DNA of 39,059 bases from the NCBI GenBank assembly GCA_910592205.1, contig CAJVPJ010000157.1, positions 1 through 39,059 of the forward strand. The letters run 5' to 3'. Origin of the DNA: Paraglomus occultum (lineage: Eukaryota; Glomeromycota; Glomeromycetes; Paraglomerales; Paraglomeraceae). This document shows positions 1 through 39,059 of this stretch, piece after piece. Under the pieces are notes generated by a model. The model saw only the letters and a list, made by a program, of their open reading frames with translations, searched no databases and was not told the origin of the DNA. The number at the start of each line of letters is the position of its first letter. The first letter of the stretch is position 1. The position numbers and the translations under genes were made by a program.

Positions 1-1520
1 TAGTAATCTTCTCTGCCCGTCAGAGGCTGGTCGTAGACGGTAGAATAGTATAAATTTAGTTTTATTAATGTATTATGGTACTATATACTAAATGACGACT
101 CTATACAGACCGATAACGATGATGAAAACGAATCAGCGATCCACTGATATACCTGACGCAATTCGCAACAAAATATCGATCGCGCAATGTAGAATGGATT
201 AGACAAAAAATGCTAAGAAGAGGTGAGAAGAGTAGTTCTTGTCGTTTATTGTTGGTGATTGTACGCATTCCAAAACACGGCTTGGTAGAAAATTTTGCCG
301 TGCAAGGTGTAAAAGATAACTTGTATAGACTTGGTTTACTTTAGGTACGTTAGATATATGCTATCAAGCGGCTGACATTGAGTTAACGCTAGCAGTTGGA
401 AGATATACCAGATACAATTGTCTCACTAACTAAAGTGGCGAGACGTCTGGCGCTAGCTAATAGCGAAGAATCAAAAGCATGTAACTGTTAATCGGACTGT
501 TCAACGAGGTGTTCATGTAAGAGTGAATAGTATTTGTAGTCAACGTTGTTATCGAAACTACATATAACCTGCCGCGTACCCTGTTGCGCATAAATTTTGT
601 GATTATATCGCATAGATATCACTCTGAGCTTATTCCGATTTGGGTCGACCCTATTCCGAATTGGGTCAGTTTTCGATTTGGGTCAGAACATATCTATCAG
701 TCGCTGTCCAAAATGTATCTTGATTCTGCATTTGTAAAATCAATTTAGAAATTCTTGTATGTGCATTATTTATTACAAAATTGAACTATTCTTATGCTTG
801 TCGTATTTCGTCTGGTTCGATATAGTCCTGATTATTAAAAAAGAGATTGTTAACGTAAATAGTATATTGACTTTTACAGTAAATAAAGAGATTTCAACAT
901 AACCGTTTGTGAAAACCAAAAATTTTATAAATTTATCAAGCCATTTACAGAAGAGAAAAAAACAAATTTCTTGCATTAAAAAAGTCGTTTACGCCCCGCC
1001 TGCCAACGACGGGCAGGCTATGCCATTACCTTCCCGGTTGTTATGATGATTATTAACATTACACGACATCTCATTATTGCAAATTTTTGACTTTAGGATC
1101 GTTCTATTATCCTATGCAGTATTCAAGTGCGACTACGGTGTTCTCAATAAAGAAGGCATTTATTATTTTCTACGTAAACTAATAATTTAATCAATGTAAC
1201 ATTTAAAAAACTTGGGTAGAAAGCCAATTATTGTTATCGAATAAGATTGTAACAAGTATATGTAATACTACTCGTGATGGCTTTATTTAGTTGTTTGTAG
1301 TTAAACAAGAAATTATGTTGAAACAATTATAAAATTTAAAGCCATTTATTTATAACAAGTTAATCAAATATCTTTTTGTTACAATTTTACATTTCGTAGC
1401 ACTTTTCGCTCAAATAAACCCATAAGCAGATATATACACAAGAAAGAACGGACAGATGACAGAACATTATACATAATTATTAGAAACCATGCCATTCCCG
1501 ATTAAGTAATACTGATCAAT
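1..1520. other. Non-coding stretch with short repeats
   Basis: No gene is supported. The frame at 773-976 (minus) is short, hydrophobic and shows no domain. The stretch holds three 14-base repeats at 633-684 and a GC-rich hairpin at 998-1018 (GCCTGCC, 7-base loop, GGCAGGC). A small hairpin lies at the very end (CTCTG at 11-15, CAGAG at 21-25). There are no telomere-type tandem repeats at the terminus. Confidence 0.6.
633..684. repeat. Three spaced copies of a 14-base GGGTC-ending motif
   Basis: Copies at 633-646 (TTCCGATTTGGGTC), 654-667 (TTCCGAATTGGGTC) and 671-684 (TTTCGATTTGGGTC). Between the first two lies the 10-base palindrome GGGTCGACCC at 642-651. Short spaced repeats of this type are common near the ends of DNA transposons, but no matching second end was found in this arm. 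Confidence 0.6.
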
Positions 1521-3336
1521 TCAAACAATTTCCTTATTATCGTCATCACCAACACTTATTACCACATTTTTATCGTCTGTGATCGCGATATAGTCTACGT
1601 TGACAACGTATTCCTTTAAAAATAATTCTAATGCAAGCTGTCTTTTTTCCATTGTCTCAAATTTCTGGTCGACCGAAAGATCACTTGATAATATAGAGTC
1701 CGAAAATGGGATACTTGGACGTAGACTTTTACGGAGAGTATCTTTAACGTTGTCTCGAATGCGTGGCAACTTTTGGACAAAACCCCATGGACCCATTGCC
1801 TTGACTCCTGTGTAAAGAAAAAAACAAGAGGGATTAATACAAACGCGTAACCAAATACGTATAGACTTGACAGGGATGCAGAGTAGTAAATAAATAGAAA
1901 TTAGTTTATATACCGAATAAGAACACATAAAGTGTTGTTACAAAACTGTATATACCGCCTGTTGAACTGAATAAATCAATAGCCGATAAATTACTAGTAG
2001 TTAAACAATGATACATGTTAGCGTACGATTGACTGTTCAACAATACTTCTTGTATAATTCAAACATCTTAAACGCCCACGACACTCACGAGTTTTCAGTT
2101 TCTACTGTAACTACATAAGATCTGGGTCTTATTACTACAGTCGCGTAATATGTGTGGTCAGCTGGATAAGGTACTGAGGACAAATATTTCGATTAGCACA
2201 TGTATTTACTTTGATAAAATAGGAATTGCTTGATTTATTATCCTATACCGTTTACTAGTTTCGCTTACCAAATATGCTGTCTATCAACGCTATCTCCAAA
2301 TGAGCGCCATTTCCAGAAAGTCTGTTTACGGCACTTTGCTCAAGACGTTTATGTACTTTACGTTCGTAAAGAAGATGGTACGACTAAGTTAATAAAGATG
2401 TTATTGTCATTAGCATACGTATTGTGGACATTATCGACATTATCGAGTAATATATCCAAATCTATACTTACTTGGTATTGACTAACAAAGTAGACGTTAC
2501 TGGAATCCGCTGTAGATTCGTAGTCATTCAATGATTTAAACACTGATCTGTGCTTATCCGCGTTGCTCAAAGCGATATCTGTTTCTAAAAGTTTTATGTT
2601 TTCCCCGTTAGAACATACGGTATCATAATCACATTGGGATTGTTATTATTCGCCATAACTTATACTAGCATACTTTGATCAAAAAACGTTGCAAGCATGA
2701 GAGCGTCAGTATTGGCAGTGTATGTTGAATCCGTTATATTAATTGACAAAGCGAGCGCAAATAAAGCGGATGCGTTAATGTTTTCCTGATCGATGTTGGG
2801 ATCACGAAACTGCAAGTCGAGTGCATTGACGCTTCCGATGTAGCCGCTTTCTGGATCGAATACATTGGGGATGATGTATTGGTTACAGTCAAGAGTAGTT
2901 CCTAACATACAGACAACATACATATTAGGATTGAAAATAGATAAACTTATTAAAATTTGCTACTTTGTTATATGACGTTACCATCCAAAAACACTTGAGT
3001 GCAGTTTATAGTAAAGTTATAAGCAGCGACAAAATAGGCGACTGGAGTAAAAAAAAGAATAAACTTATTAATATTATATAGCGGATTAATTTTGTTATAC
3101 TAGTAAAAGATTTACATACCTGGTGGAGGAATACCGCCACTATTCTGTTGCTTATAGATTAAGGTTCTTTCATCTTTGGCCAGTTTGTATGCTTTATAAC
3201 AAAAATAAATTCCTACGCATATGTAGAAACTATATAAAACTAACATTCTCATTTTTCGGATAAAAGGAATCTCGGAACGACGTGGAGGAATACGCTTGGC
3301 GAGCATATCTTTTACTTTCTCTTTTATCGTGCTCAT
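1521..3336 (-). CDS. Two-span membrane protein of unknown function, eight exons
   Basis: Exons by mirror of the right-arm copy: 3120-3336, 2982-3041, 2674-2901, 2472-2584, 2269-2383, 2089-2173, 1914-1993 and 1521-1807. All junctions are GT..AG and in phase, giving 394 residues. A short basic N-terminus leads into a first membrane span at about residues 31-50. A lumenal or extracellular domain follows, to about residue 275, with sequons NFT, NCT, NAS and NIT and two cysteines that could pair. A second span lies at about 280-299, and a basic cytoplasmic tail carries GPWGFVQ and ELFLKEYVVNVDY. The architecture recalls an uncharacterised family I associate with Rhizophagus; this is memory, not a search. 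The start ATG sits in a good context (ACAATGAGC). No function is known. Confidence 0.75.
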
Positions 3337-3400
3337 TGTGGTAAAAATTAAAAACTGTTAACACGGGTAAAGTTTAAATACCAAAATATTTTTCTTGGTT

Positions 3401-3601
3401 TTAGTTGAAACGTAAACCTTTTACGTAAAGGACAGCTTCTGGCGACTGGCAGTATTTATAATAATAATTCCTCGTGATAGTGTGTTGTGTTATCAAGCTT
3501 ATTTTTAGCGAAAGTTGTATTAATACTAAAAGCACAATGCAAATAAATAAACCTAATTGAATGAACTCATTCACGCTCTTGTTGTCAGTAGTATTGTCCA
3601 A
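3401..3601 (-). pseudogene. Truncated HMG-box-like fragment
   Basis: A 66-codon frame with no ATG (first possible start is TTG). It reads like a shortened HMG box. A helix-1-like stretch begins NEFIQLGLF, a helix-2-like KISLITQHT follows, and the start of helix 3 reads SPEAVLYVKGL before the stop. The middle is hydrophobic enough to be a membrane span instead. It ends 64 bases before the membrane-protein start and could alternatively be an upstream exon of that gene, since a GTAAAA donor and TTAACAG acceptor exist in phase, but no start codon supports that. Family assignment is by eye only. Confidence 0.3.
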
Positions 3602-4402
3602 AAAGATAATAAAGCTGTACTTTAAAATTTATTTTAATGTTTGTTCTATTTTTAGCTTGTTATAAATAGTTTTGACATTTTCTACATTCGATAAAACTTT
3701 TCACTATTTTAGACGCGGCAGTTATCAGCAGGTCGAGTAAAACAAACGATCGGAGGTTACGTTCTTAATTAATGGTCAGGGGGTCTGATAACATAAATTT
3801 GATGGTGGTAAGCATTACCTGATTGTGTTCTAATGTAAGCATAACAAAGACATCCTTCTGTTTACGTAAAATATTTGTAGTAAAAGAGAAAAAGTTATAT
3901 GCGTCTAACCGAATAACAAGTTTAAATCCAACCATTCAATTAGGCTAACAAGTGTTGAATTGTTAAAATGCTTCTTAATGATGGATAATTATAGATTAGA
4001 TGGCCAATTCGCGGCAATTGGTGACACAAGCAAAGATCAGACTTTAACTGATACAAGTAGCACATAACGGTATCCAATGATATGTTGAATGCAGGCACGG
4101 TACGCAAATTCACCAATCGTGATATTATAATTAATACAAAATTGTGTTAATTGGTTTGTTGTGAAAACAAAAGACGCCCTTAAAAACGAGTTTAAAGCAA
4201 GTTATAAACGTACATTTGCAATATAACCTATGAATCAAACGCAGACATTATCTCCACCACGTCTTTGTTATGTTAGTGAGAGTATATAATTGAGAAACTT
4301 TTATACAGTTTGTTGAGGCAAATCTTATTAATATAGTCTATTGCTAATTGTTACGTTATTGCGTGTTCGTATGTTGACATTAATATTACGCATCAAAGTT
4401 GT

Positions 4403-4435
4403 AGATTGGGCATTTCTTTATCAAATGCCCAATCT
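4403..4435. repeat. Perfect 13-base-pair hairpin
   Basis: AGATTGGGCATTT at 4403-4415 and its exact reverse complement at 4423-4435 enclose a 7-base loop (CTTTATC). Nothing nearby suggests a gene end. It may be a small transposon remnant. Confidence 0.7.
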
Positions 4436-4801
4436 TACCGTTTACGGCAAATAGACGACCATAAAATCTCTCACAGATCACTTCCTTTTATATTTTAATC
4501 CTTAAATAGGACCTCATATTTGGCATACTAATACTGTTGTAGTCTGCACGTTTTGCAATATATCGGAGCATGATGGACGAGCTATAGTTTGGGTGGGATG
4601 GTTTTTTTTTCAAACCGTAATAGGAAAGCCGACAATGTTAAGTAAATGTTTAAACTTGTGACAATTTAACCTAATTTGACTGTCGGGTTGATCGTTGGCA
4701 GTTACACGAAGACTTGTGCTCCGGTCATAGTCATGGGATTTCCCTATTCACTTTGAAACCCTCGTTTTGAATAAGGTTTTTTTTTTTGAGTTTTCCGAAT
4801 T

Positions 4802-5155
4802 TTGACAATTTCAATTTCAGCCAACATTTTGAGTAACATTGCCCCCCAAGATGTCAACTTTGCCAAGGCCCTGTGCTACAGCAACACAAAATCGCATGAT
4901 AAGAACACTGTACCACGTCAGAATGTATATCTTTTTTTAGCACGCTTACAAAAAATTGCATGCCTGTCAAATATGGTAGCGTATCTATGAAGCTTAAATT
5001 AGTATGGTGTGGAGAAACAGCACAACAGATTTGTTTATGCAATTGACTATGAGAAGCGTTGCCATTGTATGTCTAACTTTGTTCAAAGAAACGCCACCTG
5101 TTGCAGACAAACCGAAAACGATAAGCAATTAATTAGCTCAGGTAAACAGATATGA
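4802..5155 (+). pseudogene. Decayed HMG-box-like gene with two in-frame stops
   Basis: One reading frame of 118 codons is interrupted only by TGA at 4988-4990 and TAG at 5000-5002. Before the first stop it carries VPRQNVYLFLARLQK, like the Pro-Arg-x-Asn-x-Phe/Tyr start of an HMG box and helix 1, then LSNMVAYL like helix 2. After the stops, YGVEKQHNRFVYAIDYEKR resembles helix 3 and its basic end. A TTTCAATTTCAG acceptor-like site at 4808-4819 could mark an exon start. The two halves lie in the same frame, so point mutations rather than indels broke it. Assignment to the MATA_HMG group is inference from spacing and composition. Confidence 0.4.
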
Positions 5156-5485
5156 GATAATCAAGCAGTAAAGATAATGTTCTATTGTCGAATGCTTATT
5201 TATCGGAACTGAACGTTTTCTTAAATCGGATTCTTATCATCATGCAACCAAGATACAAAGAGCTTCAAATATTGAGTAGCGGATGTGTTTACGCAATGTT
5301 GCTAAAGATAATGCAAATTTGTACGTATTATTCCATATGGGCTAATGGTTTATTTTTTGCGTAAATAATAGCCTTTGTTTATTGCAATTTCGTAGTAATA
5401 GAAGAAAGAGATAGTAAAACGTTAAAAAATGCTTGCTTAAATATAATTTTATTTTGTTATATGACGGAAATTTAAATTAAAGTTG

Positions 5486-5653
5486 CTAACTAAGAAAAAT
5501 GTTGCTGTAAATGTAAACACAATTCTCGTTTTACAAGTTGCTTTGCATTTTTCGAACGCGTGACAGTGAATTGTTGATGGCTTTTTGCGTATCGGAATTA
5601 ACAATGTAAAGGACAATGAAGAACGATTCATTAATGAGCCATACAAATTGCAT
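5486..5653 (-). pseudogene. HMG-box-like relic with one internal stop
   Basis: A 40-codon ATG frame (5531-5653, minus) continues in frame past TAA at 5531-5533 to a second stop at 5486-5488. The first part reads INESFFIVLYIVNS (helix-1-like) then NNSLSRVRKMQ (helix-2-like). After the stop, NENCVYIYSNIFLS resembles the beginning of helix 3. The overlapping ATG frame at 5449-5688 has no such features. Weak evidence, listed because it fits the pattern of its neighbours. Confidence 0.25.
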
Positions 5654-6519
5654 TTGTGGTTATGAGTATTTGCGTATTTCAGAATCATTTCAAAGTTGCG
5701 TAATTATATATTATTTATCTTTGTAAACGTCAAGTTTTTCTACTATTAAATTTTTAAGTTTAAGTTTGGCCTTTTTTCGTTGACCAAAAATTTTGGGTTT
5801 TGCAACACTATTACTTCGAATGTCGTCATGTATGAATCGATCGCCAGAAACGACGTACTTGGATTTCTAATGGTAATACAACACGTTATGATAACTGTTT
5901 TACGGCGCTTATTGGACTAAGCCAAGTACAGAAAGTGGAACATTTGTCGCTGATTTTGCACGTGTAGTGTAGTAAAATAAACACAGCAAAAATTGTAAGT
6001 GCGAAGCATGCTAGGATAAATAATTTTTTAGAAAATATTTTAATATAAGTCAGCAAAAGTCATAAGAAGATACCGAGAGTGTGTTTTGAAAGAGATTAGG
6101 AGGAGTACCAGACTCTTTTATTGTCATCCGGAGAGAAAAATGTGGCGAGCCAGTTTGAGCTTTCCTATGCTTTTTTTCGATAATATAACACAAATATTTA
6201 TAAACACAACTTACATTCTGCGTATACAGACTTTTGTCATTATGTTTTACAATTTTCTAATTCAATGATTACAACAATTTATTTAAATTAGATGCATTAA
6301 TTTTACTTTTTTTTACCAGACCTTTTCAACAAACACACGTACCAATTTTTCTCATATGATTAAATTCCGTAATAATAATCGCTGCCATAATACACACAAT
6401 TGCTATACCGAAAAAAGTTTTTGAAATTTTATACTTTCTCTGCTTATTACTTATTGTTTATAACTTTATCATTTATTACCCAGCTTAGGTTTAATACAAA
6501 CTTTCAGTCAAATAACTAT

Positions 6520-6725
6520 TTACTTATATTTCCGTATTGTTAGTTTTTCATTTGCAACCTCCGAACATGCATTATCTAAATTGCGAATCTCACCTCTGTC
6601 CATTAAGATTTTTGTCGTCTCCCTAATTGCTTAACCATACGCTTGCGAAAATTAATGTACTGCGCAGCAGGTCTTTTACTATGCAAGTTTTTAGACATAT
6701 CAAAGTTTTCTTCTGGTTCAGTAAA
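6520..6725 (-). pseudogene. HMG-box-like relic split by a one-base frameshift
   Basis: The first frame gives TEPEENFDMSKN, then KRPAAQYINFRKRMVKQLG, a basic helix-1-like segment, and stops at 6603-6605. Moving by one base just before that stop opens a second frame to 6520 with MDRGEIRNLDNACSEVANEK and TIRKYK, like helix 2 running into helix 3. The two frames abut without a gap, so a single-base loss in an A-run (CAAAAATC) explains the break. An ATG lies at 6699 (minus). No longer a working gene if this reading is right. Confidence 0.4.
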
Positions 6726-7696
6726 TTATTTAGCAATAATAATAATCATTAACGCTCTCAATGGTTGGTTAACAGTTGAATAACTCGTAAAAAATTGCCG
6801 TTTACCCAATCCGACTCATACTAGGCGAGACGTTATCCATACTCAGAAGCTGGCGACATTTAATAAGGTGTTTCAACCGTATTACAATCGTAGGTTTGTT
6901 CATAAGATAGGATAATAATTCGCATCTACCATTGTTGATAAATGGTGACTTCTGCACTTAACGTCATCAATATCAGTTCTCATGTTAGTTCAAAAAGTTA
7001 GTAAACGTGCTTTACAAAAAAACATATAAGTAGGACCATCCCTTTACGAGCTGACGGAAATATTTATACAAACATCTTTAACTCTCGCTCGTTTGTTGCT
7101 CTGTTACACTTAGTAATCGCCTTCAGCAAACATATCGCGCTCTGTTGTATTTATTTGTAAGTTTCTTATGCAAATTTACATCACTTTTTGTTGTATGAAT
7201 ATGATAGTTTTAACCTTAATATTAACGCACACACGGGCGTACGCTTATTGTAAACATTCGGGGATATAATATATTACATGCGTCCCGATCAAGCTATTCT
7301 CGATTATAATGTGCATTTGTTGTCCTTCCGTTACGTTCGACTGTATCGGTTTCAATAGCGAGTCGTTTGCAGGATGTAACAAGATTTTTTCGACACAAGT
7401 CTAACGGTGTTTTATTGTGATTAAATTTTATGTCCGATATATCATGCTTATTTTATAATTAATTTTAACTGTCATAACCAATAATCCAATAATAAACTTA
7501 CCGTTCACCTATATGCAAAAATGTTCTTTATGAGAAGTTGATCCTTTATAAAGAGTTGTTACAGAAGAGTATAATATATAAAACATAATAGAAGAATTTT
7601 CTATAAATATGTGGCAACTATCATGGTAATAGTAACAATCATGAGAAATTAAAATGCCAATGTACACTTTCAATTTGATTAGCACCAAGATTCAAA

Positions 7697-10600
7697 TTAA
7701 TATGAGGCAAAGATGAATTTGATTCTAGAGCCTTTGCTAATGTTGTTGTTCCTGTATGTCCAATCAAGATATAAAGAAGTAAGAGATGAATTTGATTCTA
7801 GAGCTTTTGCCAATGCTGTTGCTCCTGCATCTCCAATCTGATTATTATCAAGATATAAAGAAGTAAGAGATGAATTTGATTCTAGAGCTTTTCCTAATGC
7901 TGTTACTCCTGCATCTCCAATCTGATTATAAGAAAGGTACAAAGAAGTCAGAGATGAATTTGATTCTAGAGCTTTTGCCAATGCTGTTGCTCCTGCATGT
8001 CCAATCAGATTATTAGCAAGATATAAAGAAGTCAGAGATGAATTTGATTCTAGAGCTTTTGCCAATGCTGTTGCTCCTGCATGTCCAATTTGATTAGAAT
8101 CAAGATTCAAAGAAATCAGAGATGAATTTGATTCTAGAGCTTTTGCCAATGCTGTTGCTCCTGCATCTCCAATCTGATTATAAGAAAGATACAAAGAAGT
8201 AAGAGATAAATTTGATTCTAGTACTAGAGCTTTTGCCAATGCTGTTGCTCCTGCATGTCCAATCTGATTAGAATCAAGATTCAAAGAAGTCAGAGATGAA
8301 TTTGATTCTAGAGCTTTTCCTAATGCTGTCACTCCTGCATCTCCAATCTGATTATAAGAAAGATACAAAGAAGTCAGAGATGAATCTGATTCTAGAGCTT
8401 TTGCCAATGCTGTTGCTCCTGCATGTCCAATCAGATTATTATCAATATATAAAGAAGTAAGAGATGAATTTGATTCTAGAGCTTTTGCCAATGCTGTTGC
8501 TCCTGCATGTCCAATCTGATTAGAATCAAGATTCAAAGAAGTCAGAGATAAATTTGATTCTAGTGCTTTTCCTAATGCTGTCACTCCTGCATCTCCAATC
8601 CAATTAGTATGCAGATTCAAAGAAGTCAGAGATGAATTTGATTCTAGAGCCTTTGCCAATGCTGTTGCTCCTGCATGTTTAATCCAATTATACCTAAGAT
8701 TCAAAGAAGTCAGAGATGAATTTGATTCTAGAGCTTTTCCTAATGCTGTTACTCCTGCATCTCCTATATTATTAGAGAATAGATTCAAAGAAGTCAGAGA
8801 TGAATTTGAATTTAGAGCTTCTGTCAATTCTGTCACTCCTGCATCTCCAATCCGATTAAACTCAAGATTCAAAGAAGTCAGAGATGAATTTGATTCTAGA
8901 GCTTTTGCCAATATTATTGCTTCTGCATCTCCAATATTATTAAAGACAAGTATCAAAGAAGTGATAGAAGGGTGTAATTTTAAAGTAGCAGACAGTGTTG
9001 TTACACTTTCATAATCTGGCTTATTACTATAAGAAAGGTCCAATGTTTCACCTTTTGACTGTTGGCTCTGATTATTAAATAATAATTCTAATTGTTTGTA
9101 TATGCCTTCACATAATGGTCTTTTATCAGGACTTTCACTACAACATGTTGAGTACAACTGAATATATGTTTCTGGTGTTCCTGGAAATGGCAAATCTCGG
9201 TATCCATTTTTCCTATATTCTGCCACATTCATACATTTCTTACAAGGAATTTGCCCACTAGAAATTTCCCAGAGCAGCACCCCAAGACTGAAAACATCAG
9301 ATTTCTTTCCCCGTTTATATAATGGAACTCTGAATGATAAGGGATCTCTGTATGCAGCAGCACCGTCTCCTATTGATGAGGACATAATCCGTCCAGATAG
9401 ACCAAAATCAGAAATTTTGGCAATACCAGATTTAATAAGAACATTAAAGGAAGACTGTAAATAAGAATTAAAGAATGACATGTGTAAGCTTTTGTGGATA
9501 GTTAGGTTTATGTCAACAGTAACATAATTATGTATTACCAAATCTTTGTGGATAATATCAAGTTTATGCATATATCTTAAACCATTGGTTATCTGCAAGC
9601 CAAGTTCATACTTGTCTTTCCAAGTTAAACTATCAAAGTGCTGCATCAAGTGTTTACGCAAGGTTCCGCCATCAGCAAACTCGAAGACCATATGGTAAAT
9701 ATCGGTTTTGTCTTTTCGATTAAGAAATACGTAATATAATAATAAATAGTAAGTTACGTATAAGTTTAAATATTGGCAATGATGCAATCATACTTACATA
9801 CACCTAAAAGTCTAATAATATTCGGATAACCGCTTACTTTCTTGTGATTTTTCAGCTATAATTGTTAATTATAGGTAAATAGTTGTACACGTAATAAACT
9901 CTATAGATGTGATGAGTATGTTAAAAGGTCGAGAATACCTCTTTGGCAAACTTCTTGTACAATTTTTCCTCATTACCGTGGGCATCCGGATATAACGTCT
10001 TAATGGCGACAGCCATTTTATTGCGTTTTATCGTTGCCTTATATACGACTCCAAAGGCCCCGCCAGCAATAGGCATATGACACATAGTAATGTCGCTTTC
10101 TGAATAACAGCGAATAGAACCCTGTTCAACACTTTTGTCTATCCATTCCTTATTATACACAATATTGGACTCTTCCTGCTGATTACGGATTACTTGAGAT
10201 TGCAAAGATGCTTCATCAATATCCATAGGAGCACAATCGCTTTGTAGTGGAGACACTTGGTGATGGATGTTTCCTTGTAACTGAAACGAATATGATGAAT
10301 AATGGTATGCAAAAAGTGAGCTTTGTACGGGCTGTTTCATAGTAAATCTATCTAGACGAACCTGTGACGGGTAATGCCCCGGAGAAACTCCAAACGTATT
10401 GGGCAGCGGGTTTTGTTTCTGTAATCCATGTTCAGATTGCATCGGCATGAATAATTCGTTCGATGTTTGTCCATCATGTTGCCTTGAATTCTGATACTGC
10501 GACGACCCTCCTCGTTGTTGATATTGCGTAAGCAGGTTTTGCCCAGCCAACGAAGTATCGTTCTGTTGCTGAATAAAACTTGGTAAGTAACGTTCATGCA

Positions 10601-10953
10601 AGCTCCGCCTACAACCGTCCAATACGTACCTGCGTTTGTTGTTCGCTTGCCGGATGCGAAATAGGATATGTTGGCAGACCAGTGGGTAATTGTAAGGAGC
10701 TATACGATGTTTCATATTGTTGTAACTGTCGCTGGGTCTCTATCTCTAGTGATCGCTGATTTGGGTCATCGGTGTAATCCGCAGACTGGTGGTATATGGT
10801 AGGATTACGCAAAGTATAGCGTTGTCGTTGCTGTTGTTGAGCAAAATGGTATGCGGTAGGATTACGCAAACGTGGTTGCTGCTGTTGCTCCTGTTGTTTC
10901 TCTTGTTCCTGCATCAATTCCTCTTGCTGAAAGGTGGTTGCGACCGACGTCAT
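7697..10953 (-). CDS. TKL-type protein kinase fused to leucine-rich repeats
   Basis: Exons 10630-10953, 9939-10568, 9798-9855, 9539-9711 and 7697-9454 give 980 residues. Residues 1 to about 265 are glutamine-rich and probably disordered. The kinase domain spans about 270-525: glycine loop IAGGAFGVV (275-283), VAIK lysine 298, helix-C glutamate 318, catalytic HKDL (Asp394, with Asn399 five residues on), DFG at 411-413, YRDP where most kinases have APE, SDVFSLGVLLWE, and DKRP. Fourteen 28-residue ribonuclease-inhibitor-type LRRs follow (558-951), plus a partial one. The catalytic residues are intact, so it is probably an active soluble signalling kinase with a ligand-sensing LRR tail. The C-terminus is altered by a small deletion after residue 959. 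Introns are 61-86 bases. Such kinases are strongly expanded in Rhizophagus. A further in-phase intron at 10281-10361 is possible but has a weak GTTCGT donor. Confidence 0.85.
7787..8968 (-). repeat. Tandem array of 14 LRR-coding repeats (84 bases each)
   Basis: Units encode SLTSLxLxxNxIGDAGATALAKALESNS with little change; one unit has two extra codons from a 6-base CTAGTA duplication near 8218-8229. Differences concentrate at the positions after LTSL (EF, FS, RY, HT, DS, DN, SY, AN) and at the residue after Asn. Near-identity at DNA level shows recent duplication or homogenisation. Confidence 0.9.
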
Positions 10954-11396
10954 GTGTGGATCGACTAGATAATCACATACCCATACGCATTAGCCAATAA
11001 TTATAATTCTATGGTATACAAAAGCAGACTGCAGAATTGTAACATCCACGATTTATTTATTTGGGTGACTTAATATAAATTAGTTCATTTCCTTTGGTTC
11101 TCATGATCAAATGTTTAGTCGCATCATGGAATAACAATTTTACGTTCAGCTTTCACGTCTGTTCTGTTATCAAACAATCTGTTTACTAAATAAACGTAAA
11201 ACATTTTAAGTTTGACCATTTTCATTGTATATTATGGTCGCAGGAAAGCTGCTACTGTCAAAGAATTTAACTTAAAAACGACCGGGACCGTGTAATTTAC
11301 AGTACTTACAAATACCTTTTCGGCACTTTCAACGGCAAATGAGACAGCTCTAGCTCGTAACAATAAATACTGACACTTGTTGAACCATCAACTTGT
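10954..11396. other. Region upstream of the kinase gene
   Basis: No gene supported. A CCAAT-type box (ATTAGCCAAT on the minus strand) lies near 10988-10998, about 40 bases upstream of the kinase ATG. No TATA box is evident. Confidence 0.4.
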
Positions 11397-11825
11397 CTAT
11401 TTTTGTTTACAAACCTTTTGTTTTAAATTTCTGCAAATAACTAAAAAAACTATTTTTTTTGGAAGGCTACGTTCCTTGCGTGGTTTATTAGGAATGTGCG
11501 GCGGCGTACAGAGATTAAATAAAGAAACTAATCTATTATTTAGACTACATTGGAAGTCTAGGTTATTAATATATTGGAACTTCTCTGGTTAATTGTAGAG
11601 CTTATTTTCGTGTTTGACGGGGGTTTGGGTTGGGTAAGTCGCTCAACTTTCGTTATTAATTTGGTTTAGCCGATATAACTGTGCTAGGTTCTGAGCAACT
11701 TGTTGTCGGTAGTGGTAGAAGCTTTTGACTTTTGGAAAGTTTGTCTCGAGTTTTATTAACAAATTGTATAATAATGCTATTTCTCGGAAACGATAATGGT
11801 TGATGTGTTTTTTTTGCGTTTCCAT
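11397..11825 (-). pseudogene. HMG-box-like gene, stop-interrupted
   Basis: An ATG frame of 60 codons runs from 11825 to a TGA at 11643-11645. It continues in frame to TAA at 11589-11591 and then to TAG at 11397-11399, so 143 codons hold only two internal stops. The first part has a basic N-terminus and FPKVKSFYHYRQQVAQNLAQ, a good match in spacing to an HMG-box entry and helix 1, then LNQINNES. After the TGA, ATYPTQTPVKHENKLYN resembles helix 2-3. The last part (PNKPRKERSLPKK) is basic. It could still make a 60-residue truncated protein: a TATA-like TATATATAA lies 28 bases upstream of the ATG. The antisense frame at 11377-11592 is treated as a shadow. Confidence 0.4.
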
Positions 11826-11852
11826 AATGATATTGTAAGAGATAAAAAAGGG

Positions 11853-11861
11853 TTATATATA
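11853..11861 (-). promoter_or_regulatory. TATA-like box upstream of the 11825 start
   Basis: TATATATAA ends 28 bases upstream of the ATG at 11825. It follows directly after the stop of the preceding small frame (11863-12072). Close spacing leaves a very short leader if used. Confidence 0.35.
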
Positions 11862-11862
11862 C

Positions 11863-18146: not shown

Positions 18147-18150
18147 CAGC

Positions 18151-27197: not shown

Positions 27198-27198
27198 G

Positions 27199-27207
27199 TA
27201 TATATAA
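27199..27207 (+). promoter_or_regulatory. TATA-like box upstream of the 27235 start
   Basis: TATATATAA; mirror of 11853-11861. Confidence 0.35.
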
Positions 27208-27234
27208 CCCTTTTTTATCTCTTACAATATCATT

Positions 27235-27663
27235 ATGGAAACGCAAAAAAAACACATCAACCATTATCGTTTCCGAGAAATAGCATTATTATACAATTTG
27301 TTAATAAAACTCGAGACAAACTTTCCAAAAGTCAAAAGCTTCTACCACTACCGACAACAAGTTGCTCAGAACCTAGCACAGTTATATCGGCTAAACCAAA
27401 TTAATAACGAAAGTTGAGCGACTTACCCAACCCAAACCCCCGTCAAACACGAAAATAAGCTCTACAATTAACCAGAGAAGTTCCAATATATTAATAACCT
27501 AGACTTCCAATGTAGTCTAAATAATAGATTAGTTTCTTTATTTAATCTCTGTACGCCGCCGCACATTCCTAATAAACCACGCAAGGAACGTAGCCTTCCA
27601 AAAAAAATAGTTTTTTTAGTTATTTGCAGAAATTTAAAACAAAAGGTTTGTAAACAAAAATAG
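27235..27663 (+). pseudogene. HMG-box-like gene, stop-interrupted (right-arm copy)
   Basis: Mirror of 11397-11825. Internal stops are TGA at 27415-27417 and TAA at 27469-27471, all in one frame ending at TAG 27661-27663. Confidence 0.4.
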
Positions 27664-28106
27664 ACAAGTTGATGGTTCAACAAGTGTCAGTATTTATTGT
27701 TACGAGCTAGAGCTGTCTCATTTGCCGTTGAAAGTGCCGAAAAGGTATTTGTAAGTACTGTAAATTACACGGTCCCGGTCGTTTTTAAGTTAAATTCTTT
27801 GACAGTAGCAGCTTTCCTGCGACCATAATATACAATGAAAATGGTCAAACTTAAAATGTTTTACGTTTATTTAGTAAACAGATTGTTTGATAACAGAACA
27901 GACGTGAAAGCTGAACGTAAAATTGTTATTCCATGATGCGACTAAACATTTGATCATGAGAACCAAAGGAAATGAACTAATTTATATTAAGTCACCCAAA
28001 TAAATAAATCGTGGATGTTACAATTCTGCAGTCTGCTTTTGTATACCATAGAATTATAATTATTGGCTAATGCGTATGGGTATGTGATTATCTAGTCGAT
28101 CCACAC
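27664..28106. other. Region upstream of the kinase gene (right arm)
   Basis: Mirror of 10954-11396; a CCAAT-type box near 28062-28072, nothing else. Confidence 0.4.
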
Positions 28107-31100
28107 ATGACGTCGGTCGCAACCACCTTTCAGCAAGAGGAATTGATGCAGGAACAAGAGAAACAACAGGAGCAACAGCAGCAACCACGTTTGCGTAATC
28201 CTACCGCATACCATTTTGCTCAACAACAGCAACGACAACGCTATACTTTGCGTAATCCTACCATATACCACCAGTCTGCGGATTACACCGATGACCCAAA
28301 TCAGCGATCACTAGAGATAGAGACCCAGCGACAGTTACAACAATATGAAACATCGTATAGCTCCTTACAATTACCCACTGGTCTGCCAACATATCCTATT
28401 TCGCATCCGGCAAGCGAACAACAAACGCAGGTACGTATTGGACGGTTGTAGGCGGAGCTTGCATGAACGTTACTTACCAAGTTTTATTCAGCAACAGAAC
28501 GATACTTCGTTGGCTGGGCAAAACCTGCTTACGCAATATCAACAACGAGGAGGGTCGTCGCAGTATCAGAATTCAAGGCAACATGATGGACAAACATCGA
28601 ACGAATTATTCATGCCGATGCAATCTGAACATGGATTACAGAAACAAAACCCGCTGCCCAATACGTTTGGAGTTTCTCCGGGGCATTACCCGTCACAGGT
28701 TCGTCTAGATAGATTTACTATGAAACAGCCCGTACAAAGCTCACTTTTTGCATACCATTATTCATCATATTCGTTTCAGTTACAAGGAAACATCCATCAC
28801 CAAGTGTCTCCACTACAAAGCGATTGTGCTCCTATGGATATTGATGAAGCATCTTTGCAATCTCAAGTAATCCGTAATCAGCAGGAAGAGTCCAATATTG
28901 TGTATAATAAGGAATGGATAGACAAAAGTGTTGAACAGGGTTCTATTCGCTGTTATTCAGAAAGCGACATTACTATGTGTCATATGCCTATTGCTGGCGG
29001 GGCCTTTGGAGTCGTATATAAGGCAACGATAAAACGCAATAAAATGGCTGTCGCCATTAAGACGTTATATCCGGATGCCCACGGTAATGAGGAAAAATTG
29101 TACAAGAAGTTTGCCAAAGAGGTATTCTCGACCTTTTAACATACTCATCACATCTATAGAGTTTATTACGTGTACAACTATTTACCTATAATTAACAATT
29201 ATAGCTGAAAAATCACAAGAAAGTAAGCGGTTATCCGAATATTATTAGACTTTTAGGTGTATGTAAGTATGATTGCATCATTGCCAATATTTAAACTTAT
29301 ACGTAACTTACTATTTATTATTATATTACGTATTTCTTAATCGAAAAGACAAAACCGATATTTACCATATGGTCTTCGAGTTTGCTGATGGCGGAACCTT
29401 GCGTAAACACTTGATGCAGCACTTTGATAGTTTAACTTGGAAAGACAAGTATGAACTTGGCTTGCAGATAACCAATGGTTTAAGATATATGCATAAACTT
29501 GATATTATCCACAAAGATTTGGTAATACATAATTATGTTACTGTTGACATAAACCTAACTATCCACAAAAGCTTACACATGTCATTCTTTAATTCTTATT
29601 TACAGTCTTCCTTTAATGTTCTTATTAAATCTGGTATTGCCAAAATTTCTGATTTTGGTCTATCTGGACGGATTATGTCCTCATCAATAGGAGACGGTGC
29701 TGCTGCATACAGAGATCCCTTATCATTCAGAGTTCCATTATATAAACGGGGAAAGAAATCTGATGTTTTCAGTCTTGGGGTGCTGCTCTGGGAAATTTCT
29801 AGTGGGCAAATTCCTTGTAAGAAATGTATGAATGTGGCAGAATATAGGAAAAATGGATACCGAGATTTGCCATTTCCAGGAACACCAGAAACATATATTC
29901 AGTTGTACTCAACATGTTGTAGTGAAAGTCCTGATAAAAGACCATTATGTGAAGGCATATACAAACAATTAGAATTATTATTTAATAATCAGAGCCAACA
30001 GTCAAAAGGTGAAACATTGGACCTTTCTTATAGTAATAAGCCAGATTATGAAAGTGTAACAACACTGTCTGCTACTTTAAAATTACACCCTTCTATCACT
30101 TCTTTGATACTTGTCTTTAATAATATTGGAGATGCAGAAGCAATAATATTGGCAAAAGCTCTAGAATCAAATTCATCTCTGACTTCTTTGAATCTTGAGT
30201 TTAATCGGATTGGAGATGCAGGAGTGACAGAATTGACAGAAGCTCTAAATTCAAATTCATCTCTGACTTCTTTGAATCTATTCTCTAATAATATAGGAGA
30301 TGCAGGAGTAACAGCATTAGGAAAAGCTCTAGAATCAAATTCATCTCTGACTTCTTTGAATCTTAGGTATAATTGGATTAAACATGCAGGAGCAACAGCA
30401 TTGGCAAAGGCTCTAGAATCAAATTCATCTCTGACTTCTTTGAATCTGCATACTAATTGGATTGGAGATGCAGGAGTGACAGCATTAGGAAAAGCACTAG
30501 AATCAAATTTATCTCTGACTTCTTTGAATCTTGATTCTAATCAGATTGGACATGCAGGAGCAACAGCATTGGCAAAAGCTCTAGAATCAAATTCATCTCT
30601 TACTTCTTTATATATTGATAATAATCTGATTGGACATGCAGGAGCAACAGCATTGGCAAAAGCTCTAGAATCAGATTCATCTCTGACTTCTTTGTATCTT
30701 TCTTATAATCAGATTGGAGATGCAGGAGTGACAGCATTAGGAAAAGCTCTAGAATCAAATTCATCTCTGACTTCTTTGAATCTTGATTCTAATCAGATTG
30801 GACATGCAGGAGCAACAGCATTGGCAAAAGCTCTAGTACTAGAATCAAATTTATCTCTTACTTCTTTGTATCTTTCTTATAATCAGATTGGAGATGCAGG
30901 AGCAACAGCATTGGCAAAAGCTCTAGAATCAAATTCATCTCTGATTTCTTTGAATCTTGATTCTAATCAAATTGGACATGCAGGAGCAACAGCATTGGCA
31001 AAAGCTCTAGAATCAAATTCATCTCTGACTTCTTTATATCTTGCTAATAATCTGATTGGACATGCAGGAGCAACAGCATTGGCAAAAGCTCTAGAATCAA

Positions 31101-31363
31101 ATTCATCTCTGACTTCTTTGTACCTTTCTTATAATCAGATTGGAGATGCAGGAGTAACAGCATTAGGAAAAGCTCTAGAATCAAATTCATCTCTTACTTC
31201 TTTATATCTTGATAATAATCAGATTGGAGATGCAGGAGCAACAGCATTGGCAAAAGCTCTAGAATCAAATTCATCTCTTACTTCTTTATATCTTGATTGG
31301 ACATACAGGAACAACAACATTAGCAAAGGCTCTAGAATCAAATTCATCTTTGCCTCATATTAA
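28107..31363 (+). CDS. TKL-type protein kinase fused to leucine-rich repeats (right-arm copy)
   Basis: Exons 28107-28430, 28492-29121, 29205-29262, 29349-29521 and 29606-31363 (324+630+58+173+1758 = 2943 bases, 981 codons with stop). Donors are GTACGT, GTATTC, GTAAGT and GTAATA; acceptors are CAG, TAG, AAG and CAG. Exon 3 supplies VSGYPNIIRLLGV, the conserved stretch between helix C and strand 4, which no single long frame contains; this confirms the splicing. The fourth intron (84 bases) is in frame and without a stop. Domain description as for 7697-10953. Confidence 0.85.
30092..31273 (+). repeat. Tandem array of 14 LRR-coding repeats (right-arm copy)
   Basis: Mirror of 7787-8968. Units 6-8 and 11-13 repeat the same order of variants (DSNQIGHAG, xNNLIGHAG, SYNQIGDAGV), so blocks of five units were duplicated. 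Confidence 0.9.
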
Positions 31364-32334
31364 TTTGAATCTTGGTGCTAATCAAATTGAAAGTGTACAT
31401 TGGCATTTTAATTTCTCATGATTGTTACTATTACCATGATAGTTGCCACATATTTATAGAAAATTCTTCTATTATGTTTTATATATTATACTCTTCTGTA
31501 ACAACTCTTTATAAAGGATCAACTTCTCATAAAGAACATTTTTGCATATAGGTGAACGGTAAGTTTATTATTGGATTATTGGTTATGACAGTTAAAATTA
31601 ATTATAAAATAAGCATGATATATCGGACATAAAATTTAATCACAATAAAACACCGTTAGACTTGTGTCGAAAAAATCTTGTTACATCCTGCAAACGACTC
31701 GCTATTGAAACCGATACAGTCGAACGTAACGGAAGGACAACAAATGCACATTATAATCGAGAATAGCTTGATCGGGACGCATGTAATATATTATATCCCC
31801 GAATGTTTACAATAAGCGTACGCCCGTGTGTGCGTTAATATTAAGGTTAAAACTATCATATTCATACAACAAAAAGTGATGTAAATTTGCATAAGAAACT
31901 TACAAATAAATACAACAGAGCGCGATATGTTTGCTGAAGGCGATTACTAAGTGTAACAGAGCAACAAACGAGCGAGAGTTAAAGATGTTTGTATAAATAT
32001 TTCCGTCAGCTCGTAAAGGGATGGTCCTACTTATATGTTTTTTTGTAAAGCACGTTTACTAACTTTTTGAACTAACATGAGAACTGATATTGATGACGTT
32101 AAGTGCAGAAGTCACCATTTATCAACAATGGTAGATGCGAATTATTATCCTATCTTATGAACAAACCTACGATTGTAATACGGTTGAAACACCTTATTAA
32201 ATGTCGCCAGCTTCTGAGTATGGATAACGTCTCGCCTAGTATGAGTCGGATTGGGTAAACGGCAATTTTTTACGAGTTATTCAACTGTTAACCAACCATT
32301 GAGAGCGTTAATGATTATTATTATTGCTAAATAA

Positions 32335-32540
32335 TTTACTGAACCAGAAGAAAACTTTGATATGTCTAAAAACTTGCATAGTAAAAGACCTGCTGCGCAG
32401 TACATTAATTTTCGCAAGCGTATGGTTAAGCAATTAGGGAGACGACAAAAATCTTAATGGACAGAGGTGAGATTCGCAATTTAGATAATGCATGTTCGGA
32501 GGTTGCAAATGAAAAACTAACAATACGGAAATATAAGTAA
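32335..32540 (+). pseudogene. HMG-box-like relic with one-base frameshift (right-arm copy)
   Basis: Mirror of 6520-6725. First frame ends at TAA 32455-32457; second frame is open 32451-32540. Confidence 0.4.
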
Positions 32541-33406
32541 ATAGTTATTTGACTGAAAGTTTGTATTAAACCTAAGCTGGGTAATAAATGATAAAGTTAT
32601 AAACAATAAGTAATAAGCAGAGAAAGTATAAAATTTCAAAAACTTTTTTCGGTATAGCAATTGTGTGTATTATGGCAGCGATTATTATTACGGAATTTAA
32701 TCATATGAGAAAAATTGGTACGTGTGTTTGTTGAAAAGGTCTGGTAAAAAAAAGTAAAATTAATGCATCTAATTTAAATAAATTGTTGTAATCATTGAAT
32801 TAGAAAATTGTAAAACATAATGACAAAAGTCTGTATACGCAGAATGTAAGTTGTGTTTATAAATATTTGTGTTATATTATCGAAAAAAAGCATAGGAAAG
32901 CTCAAACTGGCTCGCCACATTTTTCTCTCCGGATGACAATAAAAGAGTCTGGTACTCCTCCTAATCTCTTTCAAAACACACTCTCGGTATCTTCTTATGA
33001 CTTTTGCTGACTTATATTAAAATATTTTCTAAAAAATTATTTATCCTAGCATGCTTCGCACTTACAATTTTTGCTGTGTTTATTTTACTACACTACACGT
33101 GCAAAATCAGCGACAAATGTTCCACTTTCTGTACTTGGCTTAGTCCAATAAGCGCCGTAAAACAGTTATCATAACGTGTTGTATTACCATTAGAAATCCA
33201 AGTACGTCGTTTCTGGCGATCGATTCATACATGACGACATTCGAAGTAATAGTGTTGCAAAACCCAAAATTTTTGGTCAACGAAAAAAGGCCAAACTTAA
33301 ACTTAAAAATTTAATAGTAGAAAAACTTGACGTTTACAAAGATAAATAATATATAATTACGCAACTTTGAAATGATTCTGAAATACGCAAATACTCATAA
33401 CCACAA

Positions 33407-33574
33407 ATGCAATTTGTATGGCTCATTAATGAATCGTTCTTCATTGTCCTTTACATTGTTAATTCCGATACGCAAAAAGCCATCAACAATTCACTGTCAC
33501 GCGTTCGAAAAATGCAAAGCAACTTGTAAAACGAGAATTGTGTTTACATTTACAGCAACATTTTTCTTAGTTAG
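33407..33574 (+). pseudogene. HMG-box-like relic with one internal stop (right-arm copy)
   Basis: Mirror of 5486-5653; internal TAA at 33527-33529. Confidence 0.25.
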
Positions 33575-33904
33575 CAACTTTAATTTAAATTTCCGTCATA
33601 TAACAAAATAAAATTATATTTAAGCAAGCATTTTTTAACGTTTTACTATCTCTTTCTTCTATTACTACGAAATTGCAATAAACAAAGGCTATTATTTACG
33701 CAAAAAATAAACCATTAGCCCATATGGAATAATACGTACAAATTTGCATTATCTTTAGCAACATTGCGTAAACACATCCGCTACTCAATATTTGAAGCTC
33801 TTTGTATCTTGGTTGCATGATGATAAGAATCCGATTTAAGAAAACGTTCAGTTCCGATAAATAAGCATTCGACAATAGAACATTATCTTTACTGCTTGAT
33901 TATC

Positions 33905-34258
33905 TCATATCTGTTTACCTGAGCTAATTAATTGCTTATCGTTTTCGGTTTGTCTGCAACAGGTGGCGTTTCTTTGAACAAAGTTAGACATACAATGGCA
34001 ACGCTTCTCATAGTCAATTGCATAAACAAATCTGTTGTGCTGTTTCTCCACACCATACTAATTTAAGCTTCATAGATACGCTACCATATTTGACAGGCAT
34101 GCAATTTTTTGTAAGCGTGCTAAAAAAAGATATACATTCTGACGTGGTACAGTGTTCTTATCATGCGATTTTGTGTTGCTGTAGCACAGGGCCTTGGCAA
34201 AGTTGACATCTTGGGGGGCAATGTTACTCAAAATGTTGGCTGAAATTGAAATTGTCAA
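33905..34258 (-). pseudogene. Decayed HMG-box-like gene (right-arm copy)
   Basis: Mirror of 4802-5155, with the same two in-frame stops. Confidence 0.4.
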
Positions 34259-34624
34259 AATTCGGAAAACTCAAAAAAAAAAACCTTATTCAAAACGAGG
34301 GTTTCAAAGTGAATAGGGAAATCCCATGACTATGACCGGAGCACAAGTCTTCGTGTAACTGCCAACGATCAACCCGACAGTCAAATTAGGTTAAATTGTC
34401 ACAAGTTTAAACATTTACTTAACATTGTCGGCTTTCCTATTACGGTTTGAAAAAAAAACCATCCCACCCAAACTATAGCTCGTCCATCATGCTCCGATAT
34501 ATTGCAAAACGTGCAGACTACAACAGTATTAGTATGCCAAATATGAGGTCCTATTTAAGGATTAAAATATAAAAGGAAGTGATCTGTGAGAGATTTTATG
34601 GTCGTCTATTTGCCGTAAACGGTA

Positions 34625-34657
34625 AGATTGGGCATTTGATAAAGAAATGCCCAATCT
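34625..34657. repeat. Perfect 13-base-pair hairpin (right-arm copy)
   Basis: Mirror of 4403-4435. Confidence 0.7.
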
Positions 34658-35458
34658 ACAACTTTGATGCGTAATATTAATGTCAACATACGAACACGCA
34701 ATAACGTAACAATTAGCAATAGACTATATTAATAAGATTTGCCTCAACAAACTGTATAAAAGTTTCTCAATTATATACTCTCACTAACATAACAAAGACG
34801 TGGTGGAGATAATGTCTGCGTTTGATTCATAGGTTATATTGCAAATGTACGTTTATAACTTGCTTTAAACTCGTTTTTAAGGGCGTCTTTTGTTTTCACA
34901 ACAAACCAATTAACACAATTTTGTATTAATTATAATATCACGATTGGTGAATTTGCGTACCGTGCCTGCATTCAACATATCATTGGATACCGTTATGTGC
35001 TACTTGTATCAGTTAAAGTCTGATCTTTGCTTGTGTCACCAATTGCCGCGAATTGGCCATCTAATCTATAATTATCCATCATTAAGAAGCATTTTAACAA
35101 TTCAACACTTGTTAGCCTAATTGAATGGTTGGATTTAAACTTGTTATTCGGTTAGACGCATATAACTTTTTCTCTTTTACTACAAATATTTTACGTAAAC
35201 AGAAGGATGTCTTTGTTATGCTTACATTAGAACACAATCAGGTAATGCTTACCACCATCAAATTTATGTTATCAGACCCCCTGACCATTAATTAAGAACG
35301 TAACCTCCGATCGTTTGTTTTACTCGACCTGCTGATAACTGCCGCGTCTAAAATAGTGAAAAGTTTTATCGAATGTAGAAAATGTCAAAACTATTTATAA
35401 CAAGCTAAAAATAGAACAAACATTAAAATAAATTTTAAAGTACAGCTTTATTATCTTT

Positions 35459-35659
35459 TTGGACAATACTACTGACAACAAGAGCGTGAATGAGTTCATT
35501 CAATTAGGTTTATTTATTTGCATTGTGCTTTTAGTATTAATACAACTTTCGCTAAAAATAAGCTTGATAACACAACACACTATCACGAGGAATTATTATT
35601 ATAAATACTGCCAGTCGCCAGAAGCTGTCCTTTACGTAAAAGGTTTACGTTTCAACTAA
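35459..35659 (+). pseudogene. Truncated HMG-box-like fragment (right-arm copy)
   Basis: Mirror of 3401-3601. Confidence 0.3.
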
Positions 35660-35723
35660 AACCAAGAAAAATATTTTGGTATTTAAACTTTACCCGTGTT
35701 AACAGTTTTTAATTTTTACCACA

Positions 35724-37539
35724 ATGAGCACGATAAAAGAGAAAGTAAAAGATATGCTCGCCAAGCGTATTCCTCCACGTCGTTCCGAGATTCCTTTTAT
35801 CCGAAAAATGAGAATGTTAGTTTTATATAGTTTCTACATATGCGTAGGAATTTATTTTTGTTATAAAGCATACAAACTGGCCAAAGATGAAAGAACCTTA
35901 ATCTATAAGCAACAGAATAGTGGCGGTATTCCTCCACCAGGTATGTAAATCTTTTACTAGTATAACAAAATTAATCCGCTATATAATATTAATAAGTTTA
36001 TTCTTTTTTTTACTCCAGTCGCCTATTTTGTCGCTGCTTATAACTTTACTATAAACTGCACTCAAGTGTTTTTGGATGGTAACGTCATATAACAAAGTAG
36101 CAAATTTTAATAAGTTTATCTATTTTCAATCCTAATATGTATGTTGTCTGTATGTTAGGAACTACTCTTGACTGTAACCAATACATCATCCCCAATGTAT
36201 TCGATCCAGAAAGCGGCTACATCGGAAGCGTCAATGCACTCGACTTGCAGTTTCGTGATCCCAACATCGATCAGGAAAACATTAACGCATCCGCTTTATT
36301 TGCGCTCGCTTTGTCAATTAATATAACGGATTCAACATACACTGCCAATACTGACGCTCTCATGCTTGCAACGTTTTTTGATCAAAGTATGCTAGTATAA
36401 GTTATGGCGAATAATAACAATCCCAATGTGATTATGATACCGTATGTTCTAACGGGGAAAACATAAAACTTTTAGAAACAGATATCGCTTTGAGCAACGC
36501 GGATAAGCACAGATCAGTGTTTAAATCATTGAATGACTACGAATCTACAGCGGATTCCAGTAACGTCTACTTTGTTAGTCAATACCAAGTAAGTATAGAT
36601 TTGGATATATTACTCGATAATGTCGATAATGTCCACAATACGTATGCTAATGACAATAACATCTTTATTAACTTAGTCGTACCATCTTCTTTACGAACGT
36701 AAAGTACATAAACGTCTTGAGCAAAGTGCCGTAAACAGACTTTCTGGAAATGGCGCTCATTTGGAGATAGCGTTGATAGACAGCATATTTGGTAAGCGAA
36801 ACTAGTAAACGGTATAGGATAATAAATCAAGCAATTCCTATTTTATCAAAGTAAATACATGTGCTAATCGAAATATTTGTCCTCAGTACCTTATCCAGCT
36901 GACCACACATATTACGCGACTGTAGTAATAAGACCCAGATCTTATGTAGTTACAGTAGAAACTGAAAACTCGTGAGTGTCGTGGGCGTTTAAGATGTTTG
37001 AATTATACAAGAAGTATTGTTGAACAGTCAATCGTACGCTAACATGTATCATTGTTTAACTACTAGTAATTTATCGGCTATTGATTTATTCAGTTCAACA
37101 GGCGGTATATACAGTTTTGTAACAACACTTTATGTGTTCTTATTCGGTATATAAACTAATTTCTATTTATTTACTACTCTGCATCCCTGTCAAGTCTATA
37201 CGTATTTGGTTACGCGTTTGTATTAATCCCTCTTGTTTTTTTCTTTACACAGGAGTCAAGGCAATGGGTCCATGGGGTTTTGTCCAAAAGTTGCCACGCA
37301 TTCGAGACAACGTTAAAGATACTCTCCGTAAAAGTCTACGTCCAAGTATCCCATTTTCGGACTCTATATTATCAAGTGATCTTTCGGTCGACCAGAAATT
37401 TGAGACAATGGAAAAAAGACAGCTTGCATTAGAATTATTTTTAAAGGAATACGTTGTCAACGTAGACTATATCGCGATCACAGACGATAAAAATGTGGTA
37501 ATAAGTGTTGGTGATGACGATAATAAGGAAATTGTTTGA
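35724..37539 (+). CDS. Two-span membrane protein of unknown function (right-arm copy)
   Basis: Exons 35724-35940, 36019-36078, 36159-36386, 36476-36588, 36677-36791, 36887-36971, 37067-37146 and 37253-37539 (1185 bases, 395 codons with stop). Introns are 78, 80, 89, 88, 95, 95 and 106 bases. The acceptor of exon 7 could also be at 37093, in the same phase and nine codons shorter; the one at 37066 gives the more usual intron length. Exon 4 could alternatively begin six bases later (AACAG acceptor). Protein features are given at 1521-3336. Confidence 0.75.
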
Positions 37540-39059
37540 ATTGATCAGTATTACTTAATCGGGAATGGCATGGTTTCTAATAATTATGTATAATGTTCTG
37601 TCATCTGTCCGTTCTTTCTTGTGTATATATCTGCTTATGGGTTTATTTGAGCGAAAAGTGCTACGAAATGTAAAATTGTAACAAAAAGATATTTGATTAA
37701 CTTGTTATAAATAAATGGCTTTAAATTTTATAATTGTTTCAACATAATTTCTTGTTTAACTACAAACAACTAAATAAAGCCATCACGAGTAGTATTACAT
37801 ATACTTGTTACAATCTTATTCGATAACAATAATTGGCTTTCTACCCAAGTTTTTTAAATGTTACATTGATTAAATTATTAGTTTACGTAGAAAATAATAA
37901 ATGCCTTCTTTATTGAGAACACCGTAGTCGCACTTGAATACTGCATAGGATAATAGAACGATCCTAAAGTCAAAAATTTGCAATAATGAGATGTCGTGTA
38001 ATGTTAATAATCATCATAACAACCGGGAAGGTAATGGCATAGCCTGCCCGTCGTTGGCAGGCGGGGCGTAAACGACTTTTTTAATGCAAGAAATTTGTTT
38101 TTTTCTCTTCTGTAAATGGCTTGATAAATTTATAAAATTTTTGGTTTTCACAAACGGTTATGTTGAAATCTCTTTATTTACTGTAAAAGTCAATATACTA
38201 TTTACGTTAACAATCTCTTTTTTAATAATCAGGACTATATCGAACCAGACGAAATACGACAAGCATAAGAATAGTTCAATTTTGTAATAAATAATGCACA
38301 TACAAGAATTTCTAAATTGATTTTACAAATGCAGAATCAAGATACATTTTGGACAGCGACTGATAGATATGTTCTGACCCAAATCGAAAACTGACCCAAT
38401 TCGGAATAGGGTCGACCCAAATCGGAATAAGCTCAGAGTGATATCTATGCGATATAATCACAAAATTTATGCGCAACAGGGTACGCGGCAGGTTATATGT
38501 AGTTTCGATAACAACGTTGACTACAAATACTATTCACTCTTACATGAACACCTCGTTGAACAGTCCGATTAACAGTTACATGCTTTTGATTCTTCGCTAT
38601 TAGCTAGCGCCAGACGTCTCGCCACTTTAGTTAGTGAGACAATTGTATCTGGTATATCTTCCAACTGCTAGCGTTAACTCAATGTCAGCCGCTTGATAGC
38701 ATATATCTAACGTACCTAAAGTAAACCAAGTCTATACAAGTTATCTTTTACACCTTGCACGGCAAAATTTTCTACCAAGCCGTGTTTTGGAATGCGTACA
38801 ATCACCAACAATAAACGACAAGAACTACTCTTCTCACCTCTTCTTAGCATTTTTTGTCTAATCCATTCTACATTGCGCGATCGATATTTTGTTGCGAATT
38901 GCGTCAGGTATATCAGTGGATCGCTGATTCGTTTTCATCATCGTTATCGGTCTGTATAGAGTCGTCATTTAGTATATAGTACCATAATACATTAATAAAA
39001 CTAAATTTATACTATTCTACCGTCTACGACCAGCCTCTGACGGGCAGAGAAGATTACTA
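37540..39059. other. Non-coding outer end of right arm
   Basis: Mirror of 1-1520, with the GGGTC-type repeat cluster at 38376-38427 and a GC hairpin at 38042-38062. Confidence 0.6.

Follow-up and report, generated by a model that had tools for sequence, protein, structure and literature searches.

The 39,059-nucleotide window analysed here, which is the whole of contig C157 of the Paraglomus occultum assembly, is with a probability of about 0.93 an in vitro fold-back (inverted) chimera from whole-genome amplification that was subsequently written twice by a short-read assembler. This estimate is based on the recurrence of the palindrome in other contigs, on the joints of the window itself, one old and one new, and on the amplification steps behind the data from which the assembly probably derives. 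The same three lines of evidence support the sequence-only reading of this DNA, which had named a fold-back chimera from whole-genome amplification as its first choice.

When the window was compared with its reverse complement, differences appeared at 97 of 39,059 positions, every one of them within 19450-19610. The left arm (1-19449, plus strand) is an exact inverted copy of the right arm (19611-39059, minus strand), with 0 mismatches over 19,449 bases, and the arms are separated by a unique spacer of 161 bases (19450-19610). Chance is far too weak to explain a perfect inverted repeat of 19.4 kb. The full self-comparison hence agrees with the perfect palindrome described earlier, and also with the claim that its outer ends coincide with the ends of the arms: C157 is exactly 39,059 bases long and symmetric to both termini, so both ends of the window are contig ends. 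Fast-changing repeats had also been reported inside the arms. Both were found, an 84-base tandem array (7762-8962 in the left arm, 14.2 copies, 85% match) and an (ACA)n microsatellite (18146-18235, 94% match), the latter with 30 copies instead of the 25 units originally counted. The assembly that was searched comprises 32.3 Mb in 1408 contigs, which are apparently sorted by size, from 146 kb (C1) to 10,000 bases for the last. Among these contigs, no further full copy of the arm was found for window positions 1000-3000 (two self-matches and diverged pieces at 70-81% identity) or 1-1000 (two self-matches and partial or diverged repeat copies).

The two joints that flank the spacer differ in kind. 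The central stretch at 19446-19812 (plus strand) also occurs in a dispersed repeat. Six copies of this repeat were aligned (72-85% identical), and in these diverged copies from elsewhere in the genome the spacer is contiguous with the right arm. All six span the right joint (19610/19611) in a single alignment, which for L012 and L013 contains internal gaps. The gain in alignment score was larger at the right than at the left joint in six of six copies (28-125 vs 1-54); the left-joint gain of 54 belongs to L012 and derives mostly from the match to the spacer alone, and L013 supports the right joint of the window only weakly. Because diverged repeat copies run across the right joint, the alignments argue firmly, for the window, that this joint represents the ordinary genomic order and that the left joint (19449/19450) is new. 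The common start of the matches at 19446 was also considered as the end of a transposon. This was rejected, since five of the six copies share further sequence upstream of the spacer that is absent from the window; the boundary at 19446 is therefore attributed to the chimeric joint. No near-identical match to the C157 spacer with an ordinary flank was found among contigs of at least 10 kb, where the single-copy form is thus unseen.

The new left joint directly follows the motif AAAG (19446-19449), which ends the arm and also precedes the spacer in four of the six repeat copies. L010, L011, L012 and L013 carry ACAAATAAAG ahead of the spacer, and the window carries CCAGCAAAG; at the position of AAAG, the other two copies read AAAA (L008) and TAAG (L009). 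As these four copies and the window all end in AAAG before the spacer, the motif is likely to have served as the priming microhomology, judged from copies that are 72-85% identical and not from the flank of this copy itself. Beyond AAAG, the likeness of the two spacer ends is not unusual, as 7.6% of 20,000 random pairs reach at least this score. For the minus strand that terminates at the new joint, a fold back onto that joint is predicted, with 16 pairs close to the strand terminus. An equally good fold occurred in 2 of 600 random windows, in a test that was defined after the fold had been seen and is supportive only.

The most likely setting for these events is the multiple displacement amplification (MDA) of fungal nuclei with phi29 polymerase. 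A minus strand whose 3' end (...GACTTT) coincides with the left spacer edge would come free, pair again through its last four bases with a complementary site lying 161 bases back, and prime synthesis with the opposite strand as template. Sequencing of the chimeric molecule would then lead to a graph path of arm, spacer and reverse arm, so that a single genomic arm would be output twice. The outer contig ends would correspond to the stop of the arm path inside a dispersed repeat, and the genome itself would most likely contain one copy of arm and spacer, followed by the ordinary flank.

Inverted chimeras of phi29 MDA, as described by Lasken and Stockwell (2007, PMC1855051), share with the palindrome studied here the inverted join, the intervening segment and the recurrence at many loci. 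According to their report, more than 85% of 475 chimeras were inverted and more than 70% were primed on 2-21 complementary bases, to which AAAG, proposed as the primer for the window only, would correspond; inverted joins below 10 kb became rarer as the distance grew (PMC1855051). Those chimeras were observed in single reads, whereas here whole symmetric contigs of 29-39 kb are concerned that apparently stem from short reads and for which an in vitro origin is proposed. The Pacasus paper likewise describes, for long reads obtained after whole-genome amplification, artificial palindromes that turn up in assemblies as inverted duplications, as here (PMC6218980). The tool presented there corrects long reads, and Illumina shearing is stated to lessen the effect; in the present case, by contrast, the mirror persisted in contigs that appear to be built from short reads.

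Amplification is documented for related material. Single nuclei of arbuscular mycorrhizal (AM) fungi, including two Paraglomus isolates, were subjected to phi29 MDA and Illumina HiSeq-X sequencing; after pooling and normalisation to 100x, the single-nucleus reads were assembled with SPAdes 3.12 (PMC10512289). Single-nucleus work is reported to have yielded 49 Mb for P. occultum and P. brasilianum, and the largest scaffold of a bulk P. occultum assembly is given as 104 kb (PMC9453076). The sample underlying the present assembly was probably amplified, with the single-nucleus project as its presumed source.

To determine how common the design is, a midpoint check was applied to other contigs, 2 of 138 of which are palindromic (C155 and C312). 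The sample was mixed. It consisted of 40 contigs hand-picked to spread across ranks, several of them near C157 in length (C155 among these), a first random set in which 58 of the 60 contigs drawn were used (C1306 and C1325 were left out) and a second random set of 40 drawn from ranks 120-341; ranks 1-71 lie outside it. If the sample were random throughout, 2 of 138 would correspond to an interval of 0.2-5.1%. With the random draws only, one of 98 contigs is palindromic (C312). By size rank, the palindromes account for 2 of 67 contigs in ranks 120-341 and 0 of 71 elsewhere. The count of 2 in 138 is a lower bound, as the check overlooks palindromes that are off-centre or whose spacer is larger (above about 280 bases where the margins are narrowest), and short off-midpoint inverted matches in L060, L061, L102 and L157 were left out of it. 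The phrase 'palindromic contig' is reportedly already in published use.

Both additional contigs repeat the architecture of the window. C155 has a length of 39,328 bases, a palindrome centre at 19664.5, which is the exact midpoint, and a spacer of 246 bases (19542-19787); C312 is 29,200 bases long, with its centre likewise at the exact midpoint (14600.5) and a spacer of 316 bases (14443-14758). In both, exact reverse complementarity holds for the terminal pieces compared (600 and 800 bases) and for 500 bases from the middle of the arms. No match to the window arm was found over 1401 bases of C155, and the central 700 bases of C312 matched only in C312 and C122. The joined segments are close together in all three palindromes (161, 246 and 316 bases apart).

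Five diverged copies could be aligned to the joints of C155. At its left joint, the joined score exceeds that of either piece alone by 22, 7, 6, 3 and 0, and at the right joint a stricter test yielded a gain over the arm alone of 0-1 in five of five copies. L140 does not span the left joint in the stricter test, and L141 barely does. With permissive gap costs, four of the five copies span the left joint in one alignment, and the right joint is overrun by L139 (21 bases), L142 (42 bases) and L141 (2 bases). The left joint of C155 is thus modestly better supported as the ordinary one. C312 has a single diverged relative, C122, whose matches are collinear to either side of the left joint, and one of them spans this joint weakly, by 4 bases (E 0.003); no C122 match crosses the right joint. 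These alignments hint that C155 and C312, too, each combine an ordinary joint with a new one, which is what a fold-back would need. No near-identical match to the C155 and C312 spacers with an ordinary flank was found among contigs of at least 10 kb.

Traces of the assembly procedure are visible in the contigs themselves. C719 and C1146 are identical over their first 76 bases and divergent afterwards. A 76-base stretch is also shared by C572, where its position, estimated from rank, is close to the contig end. In C1069, C295, C1220 and C1119, the match to the repeat that all these contigs have in common breaks off 74-77 bases from the contig start. Since contigs have common 76-base starts and then diverge, it seems that short reads were assembled through a de Bruijn graph with k near 77. 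The proposal that the palindrome came from a two-strand long read does not fit, as the common 76-base starts point to short reads.

In a de Bruijn graph of this type, both arms would be one path read twice. It follows that the identity of the arms, microsatellites included, and their coincident ends say nothing about age and count neither for a young palindrome nor for a molecule with hairpin ends. The sequence-only reading had used both features as discriminating arguments. The first loses its force because the graph gives the same base-for-base identity, fast-mutating repeats included, for a real palindrome of any age, and the second because coincident outer ends would be expected in such a graph for a real palindrome too.

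The graph could also be held responsible for the entire structure, the assembler or scaffolder having connected the arm with itself although no chimeric molecule existed. The assembly does look graph-based, and graphs readily yield symmetric contigs. However, the match proposed for the new joint comprises only 4 bases, far below the overlap of about 77 expected of the k-mers, and each of the three contigs has a spacer of different length and sequence. Because the 4-base match falls so far short of k, the joints were probably present in the reads, i.e. chimeric molecules were sequenced. A purely computational mirror, which had been raised earlier as a graph artefact, is accordingly a poor fit and very improbable.

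The in vitro timing of the fold-back has to be weighed against an origin in the living fungus, where a real young inverted duplication, carried by the sequenced strain, would be made in the nuclei by fold-back priming at a broken end. Such an event would leave the same joint anatomy (a short match, a spacer, one old and one new joint), and a short-read graph would turn a real palindrome into an identical contig. In vivo fold-back inversion occurs in yeast lacking Mre11 or Sae2 activity. As reported for yeast, a 3' end folds onto a short inverted repeat and primes synthesis, as is proposed here, so the joint anatomy is no proof of an in vitro origin (PMC10622511). The yeast inversions arose in vivo and were recovered as clones, and the case described there has an 11-base imperfect repeat and a 6-base spacer, compared with a 4-base match 161 bases away in the window (PMC10622511). 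Against an in vivo origin stands the presence of three such contigs in one assembly, with no relation detected among the pieces compared and with symmetry to the ends where tested. It would be unusual for one genome to contain several independent palindromes with arms of 14-20 kb, whereas chimeras are common products of amplification: a single-cell study of E. coli reported 495 in 10.9 Mb of mapped reads (PMC1855051). A young duplication formed in the nuclei is therefore regarded as unlikely. The broader proposition that P. occultum nuclei carry recurrent young fold-back palindromes with arms of about 14-20 kb, and that nuclei differ by inverted duplications, is rated slightly lower still. If the palindromes were real, they would indicate a striking instability of the genome in fungi in which the nuclei live in a common cytoplasm.

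The outer ends and the gene content of the arms bear on a further alternative, namely a linear molecule with hairpin ends or a palindromic linear replicon, similar to the palindromic minichromosomes that carry rDNA. The symmetry of the contig to its very ends would be in line with such a molecule. The ends, however, lie inside another dispersed repeat (1-692, mirrored at 38368-39059), whose best copy is found in C265 (82%) and which is a natural stopping place for a short-read contig. The first 2.4 kb are without a tandem array, and tandem TTAGGG or TTTAGGG was not detected; TTAGGG occurs singly only, far from the ends. The telomere repeats that would cap a linear palindrome are thus absent from the outer ends of the window. 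Moreover, the identified genes are ordinary fungal ones and two other contigs have the same design. A hairpin-ended or linear replicon is consequently hardly credible. Several other contigs begin at a distance of about 77 bases from the edge of the outer repeat (614-693), which is likely a trace of the k-mer length of the assembler.

Among the arm genes that were identified, all are of ordinary fungal or eukaryotic type. A gene with a kinase domain and leucine-rich repeats lies at 7697-10715 on the minus strand and is mirrored in the right arm; its two open reading frames (9921-10715 and 7697-9787) are probably two exons of a single gene. The 84-base tandem array, read on the minus strand, encodes leucine-rich repeats of 28 residues adjoining the kinase domain. 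A further open reading frame (14327-15886, plus strand, also mirrored in the right arm) encodes a protein of 519 amino acids. Besides the window's own protein, a search with it returned three relatives at 34-40% identity, two of them named, from P. occultum (35%) and P. brasilianum (40%). An Rfam scan of window positions 1-20000 and a tRNA scan of the whole window gave no matches.

In single-nucleus assemblies of mycorrhizal fungi, mirrored contigs can exaggerate the number of genes, the share of repeats and the apparent extent of gene duplication. Each gene of C157 is present twice in the assembly, and the same apparently applies to the genes of C155 and C312. A screen of every contig against its own reverse complement would catch such cases.

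A separate observation concerns C967, which harbors pieces of bacterial rpoB and rpoC at 1065-5213 (L031), with one TGA within the rpoB match. The closest proteins belong to records under Paraglomus, Ambispora and Funneliformis; with one protein recorded for P. occultum, the rpoB piece shows 100% identity across 86% of its length. These bacterial pieces presumably derive from a Mollicutes-related endobacterium of the fungus.
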